From Lentilactobacillus dabitei (GTDB lineage: Bacteria > Bacillota > Bacilli > Lactobacillales > Lactobacillaceae), in assembly GCF_019061365.1 (NCBI RefSeq), contig NZ_JAHPPD010000009.1:1-50402 (forward strand): a DNA stretch of 50,402 bases, given 5' to 3'. Below the pieces are notes generated by a model, which searched no databases, was not told the origin of the DNA, and worked only from the letters and a program-made list of their open reading frames with translations. The stretch's first letter is position 1, and each line of letters opens with the position of its first letter. Shown here piece by piece: positions 157 to 10,756 of this stretch. The translations under genes were made by a program, and so were the position numbers.

Positions 157-219
157 CGCAAAGAAAGACGCCAAATAACCTGCTCAACCATGAGTAGATT
201 ATTTGGCGCCTTTGCCAAA
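157..219 (-). promoter_or_regulatory. ANTAR tandem-hairpin antiterminator plus intrinsic terminator
   Basis: On the minus strand, hairpin P1 (219-202) has stem TTTGGC/GCCAAA and a six-base loop AAAGGC. P2 (197-180) has stem CTACTC/GAGCAG with one mismatch and loop ATGGTT. Both loops have A at position 1 and G at position 4, the EutV ANTAR recognition rule. A terminator, GGCGCCAAATAA paired with TTATTTGGCGTC followed by TTTCTTT, uses the 3' arm of P1 and encloses P2, so it excludes P1. This leader sits directly before the adenosyltransferase remnant. Confidence 0.78.
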
Positions 220-230
220 CATTTGTGATA

Positions 231-259
231 AGTGTAACGCTTACATTTACATAATTCAA
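231..259 (-). promoter_or_regulatory. Sigma-A promoter with cre-like site in the spacer
   Basis: On the minus strand, -35 TTGAAT (259-254) and -10 TACACT (236-231) are 17 bp apart. The spacer carries TGTAAGCGTTACA (245-233), a near-palindromic cre-like sequence one base shorter than the usual 14-mer. The layout copies the eutG promoter at 611-639. CcpA repression is inferred. Confidence 0.6.
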
Positions 260-330
260 GCTTTAAATATTGCGAGTTCATGGAAGCTTTTTAATTATGA
301 TGAGATATTGGGTTGATTAGATAAATAATG

Positions 331-358
331 TTGACTATATTATGTTAATTATGATATC
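331..358 (+). promoter_or_regulatory. Possible promoter of the riboswitch RNA
   Basis: TTGACT at 331-336 is followed by weak -10 candidates (TATGAT at 350, GATATC at 353). The site lies about 20 bases upstream of the AdoCbl aptamer, as needed for an independently transcribed EutX-like RNA. The -10 is poor, so only a tentative call. Confidence 0.35.
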
Positions 359-374
359 GTTTGATTGTTGATTT

Positions 375-476
375 GAATAAGTGCAACGGATAAATGGAAA
401 CCGGTGTAATTCCGGTACGGTCTCGCCACTGTAATTAGCGATATGCTATAAGTCAGATCTTTTTATTTGTTGCCCG
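375..476 (+). ncRNA. Cobalamin (AdoCbl) riboswitch aptamer
   Basis: Conserved blocks appear in order: GGAAACCGGTGTAATTCCGG with its short hairpin, then ACGG, GCCACTGTAA, and the B12 box AAGTCAGA at about 450-457. A closing stem can form from GCAAC near 383 and GTTGC near 469. The core matches AdoCbl-type aptamers. It probably controls the terminator that follows. Confidence 0.88.
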
Positions 477-480
477 CATC

Positions 481-514
481 GCATTCTGTCTCGAGCCTAG
501 ATGGAGTGCTTTTC
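481..514 (+). terminator. Riboswitch-controlled terminator
   Basis: GCATTCT (481-487) pairs with GGAGTGC (503-509, with wobbles) and is followed by TTTT. It lies immediately after the aptamer, where ligand binding would give the short RNA. The stem is moderate, so less certain than the distal terminator. Confidence 0.5.
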
Positions 515-528
515 ATATCAACAAATTA

Positions 529-568
529 TTGTACAAAGGCGTGCAATAACATGAACAACGGCGTTTAT
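529..568 (+). promoter_or_regulatory. ANTAR P1-P2 hairpins of the EutX-like RNA
   Basis: P1 (529-546) is TTGTAC, loop AAAGGC, GTGCAA. P2 (551-568) is ATGAAC, loop AACGGC, GTTTAT. Each has a six-base-pair stem and a six-base loop with A1 and G4, and they are four bases apart. They are probable EutV dimer-binding sites that act as a decoy rather than controlling a gene. Confidence 0.82.
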
Positions 569-572
569 GGGA

Positions 573-597
573 AGTCGCCAAATAGCGGCTTTTTTTG
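573..597 (+). terminator. Distal terminator of the EutX-like RNA
   Basis: AGTCGC (573-578) pairs with GCGGCT (585-590) and is followed by a run of T. It ends the RNA before the eutG promoter. Confidence 0.7.
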
Positions 598-610
598 TTA
601 AGAGAAATTG

Positions 611-639
611 TTGACATTCATAAATGTAAGCGCTATACT
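611..639 (+). promoter_or_regulatory. eutG promoter with embedded cre-like site
   Basis: -35 TTGACA (611-616) and -10 TATACT (634-639) have a 17-bp spacer. TGTAAGCGCTATAC (625-638) matches the cre consensus at about 12 of 14 positions and covers spacer and -10, so CcpA binding would block the polymerase. It is the same arrangement as on the minus strand at 231-259. Confidence 0.72.
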
Positions 640-662
640 TCATTCGTAAATAAAAATAATAC

Positions 663-742
663 TAGTACAATGGCGTACTAAAAAAGCAATGACGCTTTGG
701 GATACCTAGATCATAGGTGTCCCGAAGCGTCGTTTTGTTTTT
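663..742 (+). promoter_or_regulatory. eutG ANTAR tandem hairpin and overlapping terminator
   Basis: P1 (663-680) is TAGTAC, loop AATGGC, GTACTA. P2 (683-698) is AAAGC, loop AATGAC, GCTTT. The 3' part of P2 is the first part of an 18-bp terminator stem (691-708 with 714-731) followed by a T-rich run. EutV binding of P1-P2 would prevent the terminator. This is a textbook EutV antitermination leader for eutG. Confidence 0.88.
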
Positions 743-2067: not shown

Positions 2068-2643
2068 ATGAAAGAAAAAATAGCTATTGTAGATGATGAG
2101 CCAATCACAAGAATGGATATCCGGGACATAGTTGAACAAGCTGGATATGAAGTTGTTGGTGAAGGTGGGGATGGTTTCGAAGCTATCGACATTTGCCAAC
2201 AGGAAAAACCGGATGTTGTGATTATGGATATTAGGATGCCTTTGCTTGATGGATTAAAGGCTGGGAGAAAGATTTTGGATGAACAGTTGGCAGAGTCAAT
2301 TGTCTACCTTTCTGCATATAGCGATGAGGAGGACACCTCTACTGCAAGTCAAATTGGTGCAATCGGGTATCTCGTGAAACCGCTATCAGAGCGCTCTTTG
2401 CTCACTACAATACAAGTTGGACTTGCATATGGTAAACGTTCCAACAAATTGAATGAAAAGGTTCAACAACTCCATACGAAATTAGAGCAAAGAAAGATTA
2501 TTGAACGGGCAAAAGGAATTCTAATGCAGGAGAATCATTTGTCAGAAGATGCTGCTTATCAAATGCTACGTAAATTAAGTATGAGTAAACGACGACCAAT
2601 GAATGATATTGCCGAATTGATAGTGTCGATGCCTAATGAATAA
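2068..2643 (+). CDS. eutV: ANTAR-domain response regulator EutV
   Basis: A 191-residue receiver plus ANTAR protein. Acidic pocket D9/D10, phospho-acceptor D54 in VIMDIRMP, K104 in LVKPL, then a helical linker and an ANTAR domain at about 136-188. Phosphorylated EutV binds tandem hairpins in eut leaders and prevents termination. The ATG at 2068 is chosen over GTG 2059 because AAGGAG lies at 2054-2059, eight bases before the ATG. The stop overlaps the eutW start. Targets visible here are at 157-219, 529-568, 663-742 and 4065-4174. Confidence 0.93.
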   Translation: MKEKIAIVDDEPITRMDIRDIVEQAGYEVVGEGGDGFEAIDICQQEKPDVVIMDIRMPLLDGLKAGRKILDEQLAESIVYLSAYSDEEDTSTASQIGAIGYLVKPLSERSLLTTIQVGLAYGKRSNKLNEKVQQLHTKLEQRKIIERAKGILMQENHLSEDAAYQMLRKLSMSKRRPMNDIAELIVSMPNE

Positions 2644-4075
2644 ACTAATAGAAATGTGTCGCGAATATACAAGTTTAAGCGAAAAAGATATTGGCCGATT
2701 AGTAACAGAGATCAAGTCAATTGAAAATAATCGAAATTTTGAAGATTTTGATGTCTTCATTGATGTTTTAAATGATTTCAACACTAATGCATTGGTTGTT
2801 TATCATAAGCTTCCCCAAAATGTGCCTTCCCTTTATCACGAAGTAGTTGTTGGCAAGGCTGCCTTGAGAGAAAACGAGCCTGGCGTATTCCATACATTTG
2901 GGACAAAGCTGAAATCAGTAAATTTGTTGGCAAAAACTCAAGAACAAAAGCTTATTCATCAAAAGATTTTTCCGATTCTGAATGGTGACAAAGTTATTGG
3001 GACAACGATTGTTGAGTCCGATGTTTCACATGATGTATTAAATGATTTTGAGGGTGAAAACGGAAAGACACGTTACAACGATATATCGGCCGCAATTCAA
3101 ATGTTTGGGCGCTTAGATCGACATGTTGCTGATCAGCTGGGTGATGCAATTTTGGGGTTTGATCAGAGTGGCAAATTGGTTCTTGCCAATCAGACTGCAT
3201 TAGCTCTGTATAAAAAGGTTGGCTATATTGGAAACGTTATCGGTCAAACTTACGAAAACCTTTCTCTTGATGGCACGACTTTTGACCACGTGTATCAGCA
3301 ACTACGACAAATGCCAGAGGCTAGTCAACCAATGATTACGAATTTTAATTATTTAAATTATTTTTTCCTGTCTAGAAAATTTTGGAATAAAAAAAGTAAG
3401 CAATTGGTTATCCTGATTCAGGACAGAACGGAGGTTAAAATTAAGGAAGCGGAGATTGTTTCAAAGTCAGTAATGCTTCGCGAAATTAATCATCGAGTAA
3501 AGAATAACTTGCAGTCTGTTATTTCTCTGTTACGAATTCAGCAACGTCGTCTGAAAAGTGCGGAGGCAAAAAAAGTTCTCAATGAAAGTGTTAGCCGAAT
3601 TATGGCAATTGCATCGACCTATGAGTTGATGTCCAAACAACTTGGAGACGCGACAAATTTAAAAGAATCGATTCAGCTATTAATTTCTCACTTTGTTCAA
3701 TTAAATGATCGAGCAGATCAACTGAACATTGAACTAGATGTTGATCCGTCAATTCAAATCGATAGTGATCAAGTTGTGACGGTTTCGATCATCATTAATG
3801 AACTCCTTCAAAATGTTGTTTCGCACGCTTTTTCAGCAAAGACTATTTCCACCGGCAGAGTCTTAATTGAAGGTCGAGAAGCCGATGGGATAATTACCAT
3901 AAGAGTAAAAGATAACGGAATTGGATTTGATTTGAACCACACCCGTACTGGTAGTTTAGGGTTAACAATAATCCGTAGTTATGTTTCCGATAAGTTATTA
4001 GGTCGTTTGAAAATTGAATCATCACAAAAGGGAACGGACGTTAGTTTCTCATTTGATCAAAAAACGCAACACTGA
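2636..4075 (+). CDS. eutW: Sensor histidine kinase EutW
   Basis: A 479-residue soluble kinase with no membrane segment. The N-terminal half (about 1-270) looks like a sensory region followed by a PAS-like fold. The HisKA_2-type H box LREINHRVKNNLQ has its histidine at residue 286, and the ATPase N box NELLQN and G box DNGIGFD follow. It is the EutV partner, and ethanolamine sensing is known for this family. The start ATG overlaps the eutV stop, so the two are translationally coupled. The last codons and the stop form part of the first ANTAR hairpin of the eutA leader. Confidence 0.92.
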   Translation: MNKLIEMCREYTSLSEKDIGRLVTEIKSIENNRNFEDFDVFIDVLNDFNTNALVVYHKLPQNVPSLYHEVVVGKAALRENEPGVFHTFGTKLKSVNLLAKTQEQKLIHQKIFPILNGDKVIGTTIVESDVSHDVLNDFEGENGKTRYNDISAAIQMFGRLDRHVADQLGDAILGFDQSGKLVLANQTALALYKKVGYIGNVIGQTYENLSLDGTTFDHVYQQLRQMPEASQPMITNFNYLNYFFLSRKFWNKKSKQLVILIQDRTEVKIKEAEIVSKSVMLREINHRVKNNLQSVISLLRIQQRRLKSAEAKKVLNESVSRIMAIASTYELMSKQLGDATNLKESIQLLISHFVQLNDRADQLNIELDVDPSIQIDSDQVVTVSIIINELLQNVVSHAFSAKTISTGRVLIEGREADGIITIRVKDNGIGFDLNHTRTGSLGLTIIRSYVSDKLLGRLKIESSQKGTDVSFSFDQKTQH

Positions 4076-4174
4076 AGTTGCGAAGGAGCAATGGAGCTCA
4101 AGATCAAACCTACGATTCTTCTAGAAGATGTCTTCTAGAAGTAATAGTGGCTTGATCTTGAGCTCCATTTTTTT
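4065..4174 (+). promoter_or_regulatory. eutA ANTAR leader overlapping the eutW stop codon
   Basis: P1 (4065-4082) is CGCAAC, loop ACTGAA, GTTGCG, and the loop contains the eutW stop TGA. P2 (4086-4099) is GAGC, loop AATGGA, GCTC. P2 overlaps the 5' arm of a 17-bp terminator stem (4091-4107 with 4152-4168) followed by seven T. The large terminator loop holds two copies of CTTCTAGAAG. Both hairpin loops satisfy the A1/G4 rule, so the leader controls eutA and the genes beyond. Confidence 0.85.
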
Positions 4175-4189: not shown

Positions 4190-5623
4190 ATGAAAGATGA
4201 TCAAATTTTGAGCGTTGGAATTGATTTGGGAACATCAACTACGCAACTTGTATTATCTCGATTAACGATTAAAAATTTTGCATCAGCATTTTCAGTTCCA
4301 AGAATTAATATTTCAAAAAAAGAAGTTATATATAAAAGCGATATTATCTTTACGCCATTATCAACTCAAACTGAAATCGATGCAAATGCTATAAAGAGAT
4401 TTGTTGCTAATCAGTATCAAAAAGCTGGAATTGACAAGCAGGATATTCAAATGGGAGCCGTCATTATAACAGGTGAAACTGCGAGAAAACAAAATTCGAG
4501 CGCAGTCACTCAAGCACTGAGCGGATATGCAGGTGACTTTGTTGTTGCAACGGCTGGACCTGATTTAGAAAGTATCATTGCAGGGAAAGGGGCTGGTACG
4601 AACCTGCTAGCTAAAGAACATCGAAAAAATATTGTCAATATGGATATTGGGGGTGGAACAAGTAACCTGGGGTTGTTCAGCGATGAAGACATTATTGATA
4701 CCGCGTGCTTTGACGTTGGCGGACGACTTATAAAAGTTACACCTAAAGAACACAGAATTACCTATATTTCTCCTAAGGTAAAGGAATTAATCAGTTCTCT
4801 TGAATTAAATATCCAAGAAGAAATGATTGTAACTGCTGATGAGCTAAAGCCAATTATCAATTGTTTAGTTCAAGTGTTAGAAAATTCAATCGGCTTAGGA
4901 ACCAAGAGCCCATACTTTGATACGTTCATCACCAATCATCCTCTTCATCCTGAAAATAGGATTGACGGCGTTACATTCTCAGGAGGTGTAGCCGATTGTT
5001 TGAATGAAACAATGCCTGCCGATGAGTTTCGATATGGGGATATTGGGTTGCTATTGGGAAGTGGCGTTCGCAATTCTCTCATTTTCAAAGAGAAAACAGT
5101 TTATCCATCGATTGAAACAATTAGGGCAACAGTTGTTGGTGCAGGATCTCATACAACTGACGTAACTGGTAGCACAATTGCTTATACAGACGGTATCCTG
5201 CCCTTACGGAATTTACCAATTCTCAAAATTGCTCAGAGTGATGAGCTACTAGAGTCTGAGGACCTATCAGAAAAAATAAGTGAAAAGATTAGCTGGTATC
5301 AGGTTGAAAACGAACTCAATAACGTGGCAATTGCATTAGTTGGGAAACATAGCCCATCATTCGATGATGTTCAGCGTTATGCTGCAGGGATTGTTAAAGG
5401 CGCTCAGGTATTGATAGCTAAACATGAGCCACTGATTATCATGATCCATGAAGATATGGCAAAGGCTTTAGGGCATAGTATGTTTGCGAGATTACCGGCG
5501 CATTACCCGTTTGTATGCATTGATAGTGTCAAAGTTGAAAATGGCGATTACATCGATATTGGAGAACCAATTGCTGGGGGAGAGGTATTGCCGGTTATCG
5601 TGAAGACTTTAGTTTTCGGTTAA
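4190..5623 (+). CDS. eutA: Ethanolamine ammonia-lyase reactivating factor EutA
   Basis: A 477-residue actin-fold ATPase that exchanges damaged cobalamin in EutBC for intact AdoCbl. Phosphate-binding motifs are visible: GIDLGTSTTQ near residue 10 and MDIGGGTSN near 150. The ATG follows AAAGGAGGGG at the correct spacing. It is the first gene after the third plus-strand ANTAR leader and lies 31 bp before eutB. Length fits the family. Confidence 0.93.
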   Translation: MKDDQILSVGIDLGTSTTQLVLSRLTIKNFASAFSVPRINISKKEVIYKSDIIFTPLSTQTEIDANAIKRFVANQYQKAGIDKQDIQMGAVIITGETARKQNSSAVTQALSGYAGDFVVATAGPDLESIIAGKGAGTNLLAKEHRKNIVNMDIGGGTSNLGLFSDEDIIDTACFDVGGRLIKVTPKEHRITYISPKVKELISSLELNIQEEMIVTADELKPIINCLVQVLENSIGLGTKSPYFDTFITNHPLHPENRIDGVTFSGGVADCLNETMPADEFRYGDIGLLLGSGVRNSLIFKEKTVYPSIETIRATVVGAGSHTTDVTGSTIAYTDGILPLRNLPILKIAQSDELLESEDLSEKISEKISWYQVENELNNVAIALVGKHSPSFDDVQRYAAGIVKGAQVLIAKHEPLIIMIHEDMAKALGHSMFARLPAHYPFVCIDSVKVENGDYIDIGEPIAGGEVLPVIVKTLVFG

Positions 5624-7036: not shown

Positions 7037-7969
7037 ATGAATGAAGAAGATTTGAAAACAATGATCGAAGGTATCTTAACAGATATGACTTCAGGTAAAG
7101 GTTCTTCAGAAAAGAAAGCAATTTCTAACACTCAGGGTAGCAACATCGCTTCTGGTACAACTGCTGGTTCTGTTGCATCGGGTGAAGTGTTGGATGACAT
7201 TACGAAAATTGACTTACGTAAACAATTTCTAGTTCCTCATCCACACGATCGAGAGGGTTATCTAAAGATTAAATCATTTACTCCCGCTCGTTTGGGGATG
7301 TGGCGGGCAGGCTGTCGTTATAAAACCGCTTCAGTTCTTCGATTTAGAGCTGATCATGCTGCTGCTCAAGATGCCGTATTTAGTGATGTTGATCCGAATC
7401 TGCCTAAGGAAATGGGCTTCTTGGAAACTCAAACCACGTGTACGTCAAAGGACGAGTATTTAACTAGACCAGATTATGGGAGAAAATTCTCTGATGAAAT
7501 GGTAGCTAAGATAAAAAATGGGGTGACACCAAACCCAAAAATTCAAATGATTGTCGGTGATGGCCTTAGTTCTGCAGCTATTGAGGCAAATGTGAAAGAT
7601 ATTATTCCAGCTATCCAACAAGGTCTAAAAGTATATAACCTTGGCTTTGAAACCAAAGATGTTATTTTTGTTAAATATGCTCGAGTTGGTGCGGAGGATC
7701 AGATTGGTGAGATTACCAATGCGGATGTTGTATGTATGCTGGTTGGCGAACGCCCTGGTCTGGTAACTGCTAAGTCTATGAGTGCTTACATTGCTTATAA
7801 GCCGAAGATCGGAATGCCGGAAGCTAATCGTACGGTTGTATCAAATATCCATGATGGTGGGTTGCCTGCCGTTGAAGCGGGTGCCTACATTGCGGAAATG
7901 TTGGACAAGATGTTACGACTCAAGAAGTCTGGTATTGACCTGAAAGCCGCAGAAAATGCAGGTAATTAA
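7037..7969 (+). CDS. eutC: Ethanolamine ammonia-lyase small subunit EutC
   Basis: A 310-residue cobalamin-binding partner of EutB. The first 20 residues ([20 protein letters not shown]) form a short amphipathic helix followed by a Ser/Gly/Thr-rich linker to about residue 50, the usual form of an encapsulation peptide. The core begins at [16 protein letters not shown] and includes the conserved [10 protein letters not shown]. The RBS is GAAGGTGAT. Confidence 0.95.
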
Positions 7970-8004
7970 TTGAATTCTTCTAAAATGAAAGGAGGAATCG
8001 CACA

Positions 8005-8658
8005 TTGAAAGATGATTTCATTAAAGCAAATGTTTTAAGTACGAGGTTGATTCCCAACGTCGATGAAGCACTCGCAACATCATTAGATTTACCCAATCAT
8101 ATCAAAAGTCTTGGCCTCATAACATCAGATTGTGATGATGTGACATATGTTGCCCTGGATGAAGCAACCAAAACTGCTGATGTGGAAATTGTTTATGGGA
8201 AGAGTATGTATGCAGGTGCAGGAAATGCATCAACAAAATTGGCTGGAGAGGTTATCGGTATCCTCGGTGGACCAAATCCGGCAGAAGTTAGAAGTGGTCT
8301 TGATACTTGTGTTCAAGTTATTGAAGAGGAAGCTCACTTTGTGAGTGCGAATGATGATGACAGTATTGTTTACTTTGCTCATACAATTTCTCGAACTGGA
8401 AGTTATTTATCAAAAGTTGCAGGTGTTGCTGAGGGTGGCGCAATCGCCTACCTCATTGCACCACCACTTGAATCGATTTATGGCATTGATGCTGCTATGA
8501 AGGCGGCCGATGTAGATATGGGGGTACTCTATGGCCCACCTTCGGAAACCAACTTTGGTGGCGGATTGTTAATCGGAAGCCAATCAGCATGTAAGGCTGC
8601 CTGTGACGCCTTTGCAAACGCAGTTAAAGAAATCGCCGCAGTGCCAAAGGTGGATTAA
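8005..8658 (+). CDS. eutL: Microcompartment shell protein EutL
   Basis: A 217-residue tandem-BMC shell protein forming pseudohexameric trimers with a gated pore. It has the EutL signature near the start (KANVLSTRLIPNVDEALA) and two glycine-rich BMC halves. The TTG start at 8005 follows AAAGGAGG at 7988-7995. It lies directly between eutC and the eutK-like gene. Confidence 0.93.
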   Translation: MKDDFIKANVLSTRLIPNVDEALATSLDLPNHIKSLGLITSDCDDVTYVALDEATKTADVEIVYGKSMYAGAGNASTKLAGEVIGILGGPNPAEVRSGLDTCVQVIEEEAHFVSANDDDSIVYFAHTISRTGSYLSKVAGVAEGGAIAYLIAPPLESIYGIDAAMKAADVDMGVLYGPPSETNFGGGLLIGSQSACKAACDAFANAVKEIAAVPKVD

Positions 8659-8672
8659 GGATGTGACAAATT

Positions 8673-9278
8673 GTGGAAATTGAAAGTCTCGGAATGATTG
8701 AAGTGAGAGGCTTCTTGGGAGCTGTGGTTGCAGCCGATAGCGCGTTGAAGGCGGCGGAAGTGCGCTTGCAAGATCTCCACATCACTCGTGGAGGACTTGT
8801 GACGGTTCTGATGACTGGAGATGTTGCAGCTGTGAATGCCGGTGTTGATGCTGGAGTTTCAAGCATCGAACAATTTAATTGCTTGATCTCTAATCGAGTA
8901 ATTGCTCGATTAGACCAGCAAGTGATTGGATTATCCCAGCCACCTACTCCTGAAAAGCTATCTCAAGCAAAGCCAACTATGAATGAGGCGCAAGCTAAGT
9001 TGATAGAAACGAATGAAAAGCCAGCGTCAATTAGAAAAAATGTAAGCGATACCAGTGATGATGCTGATGGGGCAACAAATACGAAAACACAATCCAAAGT
9101 AGATCCTAAGTGGGTAACTGATCCAAAAGCATTAGAACGGATGCGAGTTGTTGACTTAAGAAAACAAGCATATCGAATGGAGATCAAGACATTAACAAAG
9201 AAGCAAATTAAGATGGGCACAAAACGAGTATTAATCCAGGCCATCTTAAAAGATTTACAAAGGAGGGATAACATTTGA
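8673..9278 (+). CDS. eutK: BMC shell protein with C-terminal SAP/Rho-N-like tail (EutK-like)
   Basis: Residues 1-90 are a single BMC domain (ESLGMIEVRGFLGAVVAADS). Residues 90-150 are a polar linker, and 150-201 form a basic helical tail (RMRVVDLRKQAYRMEI, then GTKRVLIQAILKDL) resembling SAP or Rho-N nucleic-acid-binding folds. EutK of enterobacteria has the same plan, with a winged-helix tail. The GTG start follows AAGGATG. The stop overlaps the eutE start. The EutK name rests on architecture; the tail assignment is inference. Confidence 0.8.
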   Translation: MEIESLGMIEVRGFLGAVVAADSALKAAEVRLQDLHITRGGLVTVLMTGDVAAVNAGVDAGVSSIEQFNCLISNRVIARLDQQVIGLSQPPTPEKLSQAKPTMNEAQAKLIETNEKPASIRKNVSDTSDDADGATNTKTQSKVDPKWVTDPKALERMRVVDLRKQAYRMEIKTLTKKQIKMGTKRVLIQAILKDLQRRDNI

Positions 9279-10756
9279 ATTTAACAGATGAGGACCTAGC
9301 TTCAATCCAGGAAGTTAGAACGCTATTGCATCAAGCAACCCGCGCGCAAAAGATCTTTAGTCAGTTTTCACAAGAAAAGGTGAATGCAATTTGCCAAGCA
9401 ATGGCAGACGCGGGTGTAGAAGCCAGCGAACGATTGGCTAAGATGGCACAAAAGGAAACGGGTTATGGTATCTGGCAGGATAAAGTATTAAAAAATATTT
9501 TCGGTTCAAAAACAGTTAATGAACGTTATCGTGATATGAAAACGGTAGGAATCTTATCAGAGGATCCAGAACATAAAATCATTGATATGGCTGTTCCAGT
9601 TGGTGTCATTGCTGGATTGATTCCATCAACCAACCCAACTTCATCCGTATTTTACAAATCAATTATCTCAGTAAAATCTGGGAATGCAATCGTTATATCA
9701 CCTCATCCTAAGGCTAAGGAATGTACGCTGGAAGCCATTAAAGTTGTCAGTGAAGCGGCTTATAAAGCCGGTGCTCCAGCTGGATTGATTTCTGGAATTA
9801 CAATTCCAACGCTTGCCGGTACTGATGAGTTGATGCGCCATGATGAAACTAAATTAATTCTTGCTACTGGTGGGGGTGCAATGGTTCATGCAGCTTACTC
9901 ATCGGGAACACCTGCACTAGGCGTTGGCCCAGGAAATGGTCCAGCATATATTGAAAAGAGTGCTGACGTTGCTCAGGCTGTTAAGCGAATTATGGATTCT
10001 GAAACGTTTGATAACGGGACAATTTGTGCTTCTGAACAATCGATTATTGTTGAAGAAGCCAATAAAGATGCAGTTAGAAGAGAATTGGAAAACCAGGGTG
10101 GTTACTTCTTAACTTCCGATGAAATTGGCAAACTTTCCAAGTTTATTCTTCGAGCTGATGGCACAATGAATCCACAAATTGTTGGGAAATCCATTAAACA
10201 ACTCGCTGATTTAGCAGATATTGATGTTCCAGCGGGGACCCGAGTATTAATTGCCAGGGATTCCGAGGAAAACATTGGTCCGGATGATCCATATTCTCGA
10301 GAAAAGTTAACGCCAATCCTAGCTTACTTTGAAGTTGATGATTGTAATGCAGCTGCAGCTCTTACAACTAAATTGTTGCTAAATGAAGGTGCAGGTCATA
10401 CCGCAATCTTACATTCTGAAAATCAAAAATTGATTCGCCAATATGCCTCTCTAGTGCCTGCTTCACGTGTATTGGTTAATACACCAGGGGCTTTAGGTGG
10501 AATTGGTGCGACGACCGATTTGAATCCAGCATTGACTTTGGGATGTGGTGCAATTGGTGGCAGTGCTACTTCTGATAACATCAGCCCAATGAACTTAATG
10601 AACTTGAAACGAGTTGCAGTCGGTATGCGTGAGCTCAAAGATATTAAGGCAGATAGTAGCGTTAGTCAAACTCATAGTATTGAATCAAGCGGTGATTTGG
10701 ATCATGAACAATTGGTTGAAGAACTTGTTCGACAAGTTTTAGCGCAGATTAAATAA
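9275..10756 (+). CDS. eutE: CoA-acylating acetaldehyde dehydrogenase EutE
   Basis: A 493-residue enzyme that oxidises acetaldehyde to acetyl-CoA with NAD+. The catalytic cysteine is C251 in NGTICASEQS, and GVGPGNGPAY at about 216-225 is conserved. The N-terminus lacks the helical encapsulation peptide of enterobacterial EutE. Instead the last 17 residues, HEQLVEELVRQVLAQIK after a Ser/Asp-rich linker, look like one. The TTG start at 9275 follows AAGGAGG and overlaps the previous stop. Confidence 0.95.
   Translation: MNLTDEDLASIQEVRTLLHQATRAQKIFSQFSQEKVNAICQAMADAGVEASERLAKMAQKETGYGIWQDKVLKNIFGSKTVNERYRDMKTVGILSEDPEHKIIDMAVPVGVIAGLIPSTNPTSSVFYKSIISVKSGNAIVISPHPKAKECTLEAIKVVSEAAYKAGAPAGLISGITIPTLAGTDELMRHDETKLILATGGGAMVHAAYSSGTPALGVGPGNGPAYIEKSADVAQAVKRIMDSETFDNGTICASEQSIIVEEANKDAVRRELENQGGYFLTSDEIGKLSKFILRADGTMNPQIVGKSIKQLADLADIDVPAGTRVLIARDSEENIGPDDPYSREKLTPILAYFEVDDCNAAAALTTKLLLNEGAGHTAILHSENQKLIRQYASLVPASRVLVNTPGALGGIGATTDLNPALTLGCGAIGGSATSDNISPMNLMNLKRVAVGMRELKDIKADSSVSQTHSIESSGDLDHEQLVEELVRQVLAQIK

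Follow-up and report, generated by a model that had tools for sequence, protein, structure and literature searches.

Three putative RNA control elements of one eut regulon, with cre-like operators and an interrupted eutT, at the eut locus of Lentilactobacillus dabitei

Organization of the eut locus

The window, that is, the whole stretch of 50,402 nucleotides that was analysed, is one of the 224 contigs of a 2.81-Mb genome. The features at its left end are given below with the evidence for each.

1-80, no strand: insertion-sequence end at the contig edge, interrupting eutT (genome and plasmid matches)
81-137, minus: eutT (ATP:cob(I)alamin adenosyltransferase), first 19 codons MQLYTKVGDKGMTKLVNGS, then the insertion sequence (translation, relatives)
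157-224, minus: eutT leader, a hexaloop hairpin and a competing terminator at about 213-163 (sequence, folds, loose scan, 7 relatives)
231-259, minus: eutT promoter TTGAAT (259-254)-17-TACACT (236-231) with cre-like TGTAAGCGTTACAC at 245-232 (sequence read by eye)
331-360, plus: possible EutX promoter TTGACT-18-TATCGT (promoter scan; weak)
369-512, plus: AdoCbl riboswitch aptamer of the EutX-like RNA (RF01482, terminator scan, fold)
526-569, plus: putative EutV dual-hexaloop site of EutX, loops AAAGGC and AACGGC (loose scan, model R2, fold)
571-601, plus: terminal terminator of EutX (sequence and fold)
611-639, plus: eutG promoter TTGACA (611-616)-17-TATACT (634-639) with cre-like TGTAAGCGCTATAC at 625-638 (promoter scan)
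663-734, plus: eutG leader, dual hexaloop 663-698 (AATGGC, AATGAC) and terminator 688-734 (scans, model R2, fold)
780-1919, plus: eutG, iron-containing alcohol dehydrogenase (alcohol dehydrogenase family matches, all below cut-off; synteny)
2068-2643, plus: eutV, response regulator with ANTAR domain (PF00072 and PF03861; match to chain 6wsh_A)
2636-4075, plus: eutW, sensor histidine kinase (kinase family matches, all below cut-off; synteny)
4065-4099, plus: third canonical EutV dual-hexaloop site, upstream of eutA (loose scan, model R2)
4190-5623, plus: eutA, ethanolamine ammonia-lyase reactivating factor (NF007992, 692 bits against a cut-off of 598)

From position 780 the genes followed in the order eutG, eutV, eutW, eutA, eutB, eutC, eutL, a shell gene, an acetaldehyde dehydrogenase gene and eutM. 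The products of eutG, eutV, eutW and the shell gene scored below the NCBIfam cut-offs, and their names were taken from domains or synteny. The window EutV showed both the receiver (PF00072) and the ANTAR (PF03861) domain and matched the solved E. faecalis EutV (chain 6wsh_A, also 6ww6) with an E-value of 1.6e-73 over 184 aligned residues. With a deduced numbering offset of two, 8 of the 11 EutV residues of the structure paper were identical in the alignment to 6wsh_A, namely Arg142, Lys143, Lys149, Glu160, Tyr164, Arg168, Met172, and Arg175. Lys147, Asn173, and Arg177 were replaced by Arg, Ser, and Pro, respectively.

In the genus, eutV was detected at E ≤ 1e-30 in 2 of 24 genomes, the window genome and G355. 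At E ≤ 1e-40, EutV was present in 10 of 397 family genomes, the window genome counted among them. The 12 loci compared were those of the EutV-positive family genomes plus L. angrenensis (L024) and G724; the L. diolivorans locus is L022 and the L. brevis locus is L023. The L036 locus (G295, oriented 7305-9298) may be decaying, because its eutV has an internal stop and its eutV and eutW matches are in pieces; its leaders look intact.

Canonical EutV sites and the eutG leader

Three canonical dual-hexaloop sites were found in the window. Model R2 gave 35.7 bits for 526-569, 45.3 bits for 663-698, and 35.2 bits for 4065-4099, and the next score in the window was 9.1 bits. These three scores are by construction, because the model was built from 26 canonical sites with the three of the window included. 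Independent support comes from the loose scan, whose sole requirement is A1/G4 hexaloops with stems: shuffles of 101-780 contained a mean of 0.024 dual-hexaloop sites under the loose rule, versus the observed sites 526-569 and 663-698.

In the eutG leader the terminator 688-734 overlapped the second hairpin of 663-698 (fold −35.7 kcal/mol), as in the EutV-ANTAR attenuators of E. faecalis. The first hairpin was free, the second competed with the terminator, and the hexaloops had A1 and G4, which is the canonical arrangement. The eutG leader and the site before eutA resembled the E. faecalis eutP, eutG, eutS, and eutA attenuators in having two hexaloop hairpins, A1/G4, and C-G closing pairs; in E. 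faecalis a terminator is also described upstream of eutA (PMC5821096). By its elements, the eutG leader belongs to the already-known type of ordinary EutV attenuators. The preliminary description had let both promoters feed an ANTAR leader, and for eutG this stands.

With R2 the eutG leader reached at least 30 bits in 11 of the 12 loci and was weak in L034. In that locus (G155) the first hexaloop hairpin alone was recognisable (18.8 bits) and the promoter had no cre-like element; we read its eutG control as degenerate or different. Outside the eut locus, the R2 search of nine genomes, in which 150 of the 826 to 1527 first-look candidates of each genome were scored, returned no match with an E-value under 0.01 (best 0.026). 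In the wider order, 28 loci with short flanks from 55 eutV genomes gave strict-rule dual hexaloops in 4 of 28, and no promoter or cre was called there.

The EutX-like RNA

An EutX-like RNA had been proposed between the two promoters, and the present results bear this out. RF01482 matched 369-512 at full length with 90.4 bits (gathering threshold 50), and the EutV site 526-569 and a terminator followed it. All 10 loci of relatives that were scanned had the AdoCbl aptamer, and the EutV site after the aptamer scored at least 30 bits with R2 in 11 of the 12 loci, with a weak score in L035. In the terminator scan and the fold, the last aptamer hairpin (481-509) was terminator-like, with 11 pairs followed by TTTTC. 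The minimum-energy fold placed the aptamer, the site 526-569, and the terminator 571-601 side by side, and the site did not overlap the terminator. As all these elements coexist in the fold, 526-569 reads as a sponge and not as an attenuator. Aptamer, EutV site, and terminator presumably belong to one transcript.

The EutX/Rli55 RNAs of E. faecalis and L. monocytogenes have the same order, an aptamer with a terminator-like last hairpin, a terminator-free EutV site, and the end (PMC5821096). In E. faecalis and Listeria the short AdoCbl form stops at the last aptamer hairpin, according to the same paper. Compared element by element with this published description, the window RNA showed no essential difference. 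Judged from sequence and fold, the region between the promoters is an RNA of the EutX/Rli55 type, which is already known.

The candidate EutX promoter carried TATGATAT, which by eye is common to L. diolivorans, and the cre-like element was absent from this promoter in the window. In L032 (G033) the EutX promoter TAGACA-ATGAAAGCGTTACATGT-TATAGT contained the cre-like TGAAAGCGTTACA.

Promoters and the cre-like element

The eutG promoter was the top sigma-70-like site listed by the promoter scan in 1-2100 (11/12). The eutT promoter scored 8/12, under the scan threshold of 9, and was hence unlisted by the scan. Both had been claimed earlier to have 17-bp spacers that share ATGTAAGCG, and this was confirmed by the sequence. 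The pattern TGWAAGCGYTANNNT occurred 4 times in the 2.81-Mb genome versus 1 for the control pattern, and two of the four sites were the eutG and eutT promoters, 380 bp apart. In 10 relatives it occurred 53 times versus 7 for the control. Inspection covered 32 sites, namely 30 of the 53 in the relatives and the remaining two in the window genome. Ten of them were eutG or eutT promoters. Others lay upstream of an alpha-L-arabinofuranosidase gene (in two genomes), a GH2 glycosidase gene, genes for two PTS components, and a transhydrogenase-like gene (Pfam). Several remaining sites in the relatives preceded genes without a clear carbohydrate link, and 5 of the 32 had no ORF downstream under the rule applied.

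The sequence TGWAAGCG adjoined the −10 in 10 of 12 eutG promoters (absent in L034 and L035) and in 7 of 8 eutT leaders (absent in L032). The cre-like elements were scored with the published cre forms of PMC2329647 (Table 1). Against the L. lactis consensus, eutG matched 13/14 and eutT 12/14 positions; against the four other published consensuses, the window elements matched 11-12/14. The L. lactis form alone was selective: the whole window has 3 sites that reach 13 or more, whereas at the eutG score the other four forms had between 86 and 2289. The right half of the element was a poor match. In L031 (G142) the eutG promoter had a 14/14 cre, TGTAAGCGCTATCA, merged with the −10 TATCAT, and it offers a clean test case for CcpA control of eut in lactobacilli. 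In L. brevis (L023, 4580-4608) the eutG spacer AGCGCTTATGTAAGCGC contained GCGCTTA-TG-TAAGCGC, an inverted repeat of 7 bp that may be a double operator.

CcpA is encoded in the window genome (539.5 bits, family cut-off 442.35), and ten further, weaker LacI-family matches to the CcpA model were found. CcpA is the likely ligand of the cre-like element, because the element also precedes arabinosidase, GH2, and PTS genes in relatives. In E. faecalis, CcpA is reported to bind a cre of the eutS promoter (Kaval et al. 2019, cited in PMC8262876), and the Listeria eut cluster has a predicted cre (PMC8547011). The window resembles these two cases in having a cre-like operator on a eut promoter, and differs from both in that the element is on the eutG as well as the eutT promoter and fixed against the −10.

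The eutT leader

The hairpin of the eutT leader is TGTTTGGC-AAAGGC-GCCAAATA (221-200). Its 3' arm is also the 5' base of the terminator, which runs to about 163, has the tip CTC-ATGGTT-GAG (194-183), and ends in a T-rich tail. With the usual spacing the RNA would begin some 7 nt downstream of the −10; as the hairpin starts at 221, 9 nt past the −10, no other hairpin fits before it. The canonical pair of a free first hairpin and a second one competing with the terminator is therefore missing here; the first hairpin itself competes.

The same plan was found in 7 relatives, where the hairpin started 11 to 17 nt after the −10. Eight loci thus carry a eutT leader of this kind, and L034 and L035 have eutT with no such leader. 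The loop was AAnGGC (A1, G4), closed by C-G, in 8/8 leaders. For each leader, no more than about 1% of shuffles of the 5' segment gave a stem equal to the observed one. Covariation support for the hairpin was weak: there was one compensatory change, U-A to A-U, common to two genomes of one genus. Paired cells made up 92.9% versus 86.8% in shuffles (22/500 as high), and slid versions gave 17-50%. The covariation score was reached by 17 and the changed-pair count by 334 of 500 shuffles.

The terminator tip CTC-N6-GAG was present in 6 of 8 leaders, with G4 in all six and A1 in five. By the loose rule, first hairpin and tip together formed a dual site in the window (221-183, loops 22 nt apart), and so they did in L023, L024, and L025. 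The tip hexaloop was dropped as a firm second EutV site: G724 has G at position 1, and L032 and L033 lack such a tip. It may still serve as a second site, because in the EutV structure G4 stacks on Tyr164 and A1 makes no specific contact (PMC8934654). Model R2 did not recognise the eutT leader; its best score, 4.1 bits, came from the second-hairpin part only.

Model R1 was built from five eutT leaders (window, L023, L024, L025, and L036). Among 397 family genomes, 66 matched at E ≤ 0.1, and the four above 60 bits were all model members. Among 35 Levilactobacillus genomes, 20 matched, four of them above 60 bits, of which only G724 was new. The weaker matches are probably ordinary terminators. 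Reading the sequence upstream of eutT, rather than R1, revealed the L032 and L033 leaders.

The earlier claim that both leaders have the same layout was thus not confirmed. Unlike in the E. faecalis attenuators, the one conserved hairpin of the eutT leader comes first and overlaps the terminator base, and a second hexaloop sits only inside the terminator tip (6/8 leaders). The leader is a variant outside the free-P1 definition, though it may work like such an attenuator, and a natural candidate for antitermination through a single hexaloop or the terminator tip.

The structure paper redefined the EutV binding unit as a single hexaloop, kept P1 as the recruitment hairpin needed for antitermination, and called for further bioinformatic and experimental work on single-hexaloop motifs (PMC8934654). 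Titles and abstract openings of the open-licence literature, among the matches listed, gave no lactobacillus eutT leader or single-hexaloop antiterminator besides that paper. The most far-reaching interpretation is that the lactobacillus eutT leaders are natural single-hexaloop antiterminators, in which EutV on the 5' hairpin, alone or together with the tip hexaloop, would prevent termination; we put this forward tentatively, at a little under an even chance. If true, a free recruitment hairpin P1 would not be a general need of ANTAR antitermination, and the hairpin used would form almost at the transcription start, close to the 5' extremity of the RNA. Lying beside canonical leaders that the same EutV presumably reads, the eutT leaders are a ready natural comparison in a commensal lactobacillus.

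The interrupted eutT gene

The eutT frame starts at 137, and its N-terminus, MQLYTKVGDKG..., agrees with the eut-linked adenosyltransferases of relatives. The gene is cut after codon 19, because bases 1-80 are an insertion-sequence end, which the preliminary description had missed. The genome contains 9 more matches to this end, 7 of which coincide exactly with contig ends, and at least five plasmid matches, including Loigolactobacillus plasmids, lay under annotated transposases. The 21-residue stub frame had no Pfam match when PF01923 was sought. PF01923 had three matches in the genome, three full adenosyltransferases elsewhere, and the truncated remainder of eutT was not among them.

In 9 of 9 relatives carrying eutT nearby, the gene was co-directional with EutX and eutG. 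In L022 and L031 no eutT adjoined EutX within the stretch read; L031 had an adenosyltransferase-like ORF about 3 kb upstream. Within the compared set the divergent layout is peculiar to the window genome. Comparison with related lactobacilli, which had been suggested as a check, showed the cre-like element, the aptamer, and the EutV sites kept in most or all of them and the divergence absent. The idea of a purposeful divergent pair is not supported, given a different leader, a 19-codon stub, and relatives with co-directional eutT.

Proposed regulation and published expression

Taken together, it is quite probable that three RNA devices of one eut regulon lie within 600 bp, with cre-like operators, and that the eutT leader now feeds a dead gene, the last because eutT is cut after codon 19 and inverted relative to its relatives. 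From the observed sequences, folds, and conservation we infer the transcription starts and the action of EutV, AdoCbl, and CcpA as follows. On the eutG side, polymerase would start after the promoter 611-639 and stop at 688-734 by default, and it would read through when EutV, phosphorylated by EutW upon ethanolamine, holds the hexaloop hairpins. The EutX RNA would span about 365 to 601. In the absence of AdoCbl it would extend to 601 and its EutV site would titrate EutV; with AdoCbl it would end at the last aptamer hairpin (about 512), so that EutV is freed. The eutT leader would be a reduced attenuator, in which the 5' hexaloop hairpin competes with the terminator base, and EutV holding this hairpin would allow transcription into eutT. 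CcpA on the cre-like operators at the −10 would block the eutG and eutT mRNA promoters when sugar is plentiful.

The control region thus probably reads sugar status, ethanolamine, and vitamin B12. The convergence of ethanolamine, catabolite, and AdoCbl control, proposed earlier, gains support from conservation in the 12 lactobacillus loci, though not in every one, and by analogy from EutX/Rli55 (PMC5821096) and the E. faecalis eutS cre (PMC8262876). If the EutV reading of the eutT leaders is right, a cofactor-making enzyme shares its ethanolamine and sugar control with the operon in which that cofactor is used.

In L. brevis ATCC 14869, ethanolamine plus AdoCbl changed transcripts including eutT, eutG, eutV, eutW, eutA, eutB, and eutC, in a table that stands under an upregulation heading; given singly, ethanolamine changed 14 genes and AdoCbl did not change any (PMC11086012). 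The leaders compared here include that of L. brevis eutT (L023). The table gives the change of eutT and not its means. The pdu genes also changed with ethanolamine plus AdoCbl (PMC11086012), and EutV sites outside eut as the cause were dropped, as the nine-genome R2 search (150 candidates scored per genome) found no dual-hexaloop site to explain this. Because the pdu genes changed with no EutV site detected, the RNA-seq data are no proof of EutV action at eutT.

Alternative explanations

At the promoters, the cre-like element could be the operator of another LacI-family regulator, or a mere promoter feature, rather than a CcpA site. LacI-family operators do resemble cre (PMC2329647), the genome has ten further LacI-family matches, and the right half of the element is degenerate; but the identical element stands upstream of several carbohydrate genes in relatives, the L031 eutG promoter has a perfect cre, and CcpA binding is reported for E. 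faecalis eutS (PMC8262876) and a cre predicted in the Listeria eut cluster (PMC8547011). We regard this alternative as improbable, and CcpA as the likely ligand. At the eutT leader, EutV may have no target at all. The 5' hairpin would then be a by-product of the G/C-rich arm of the terminator, and control would consist of the promoter (cre) and a fixed read-through. This seems unlikely when the 5' arm, which has no terminator role, yet pairs in 8/8 leaders, when the loop retains the EutV signature A1/G4 with C-G closing, and when the transcripts that ethanolamine plus AdoCbl changed include eutT, with the single-compound results given above (PMC11086012). It draws its weight from the missing R2 score, the single hairpin before the terminator, the weak covariation, and the published model in which P1 is needed for antitermination in vivo (PMC8934654).

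Rearrangement is the probable cause of the divergent layout, because eutT is co-directional in 9/9 relatives; the gene break itself is observed. An assembly error is possible. It could also be that the divergent arrangement is native and functional in the species and eutT was cut only recently in this strain, which would suit an intact eutT leader and promoter. A eutT 3' remnant at 236-368 was sought by local alignments with the 200-base stretch that precedes the aptamer in each of 10 relatives, and the p-values against shuffles (0.03 to 0.97) were not convincing. An inversion scar in the form of such a remnant was accordingly dropped, and the missing remnant also favours a native arrangement. 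The co-directional eutT near EutX in all nine relatives, the insertion sequence located at the break, and the lack of a eutT remainder among the PF01923 matches speak against it, and we consider it somewhat unlikely. A rearrangement remains our preferred explanation.

Some match to 1-2100 of the window was found in 389 plasmid records, most of them from Lactiplantibacillus, Pediococcus, and Lacticaseibacillus. Among the plasmid matches listed, the lactobacillus ones hit the insertion-sequence end at 1-80.
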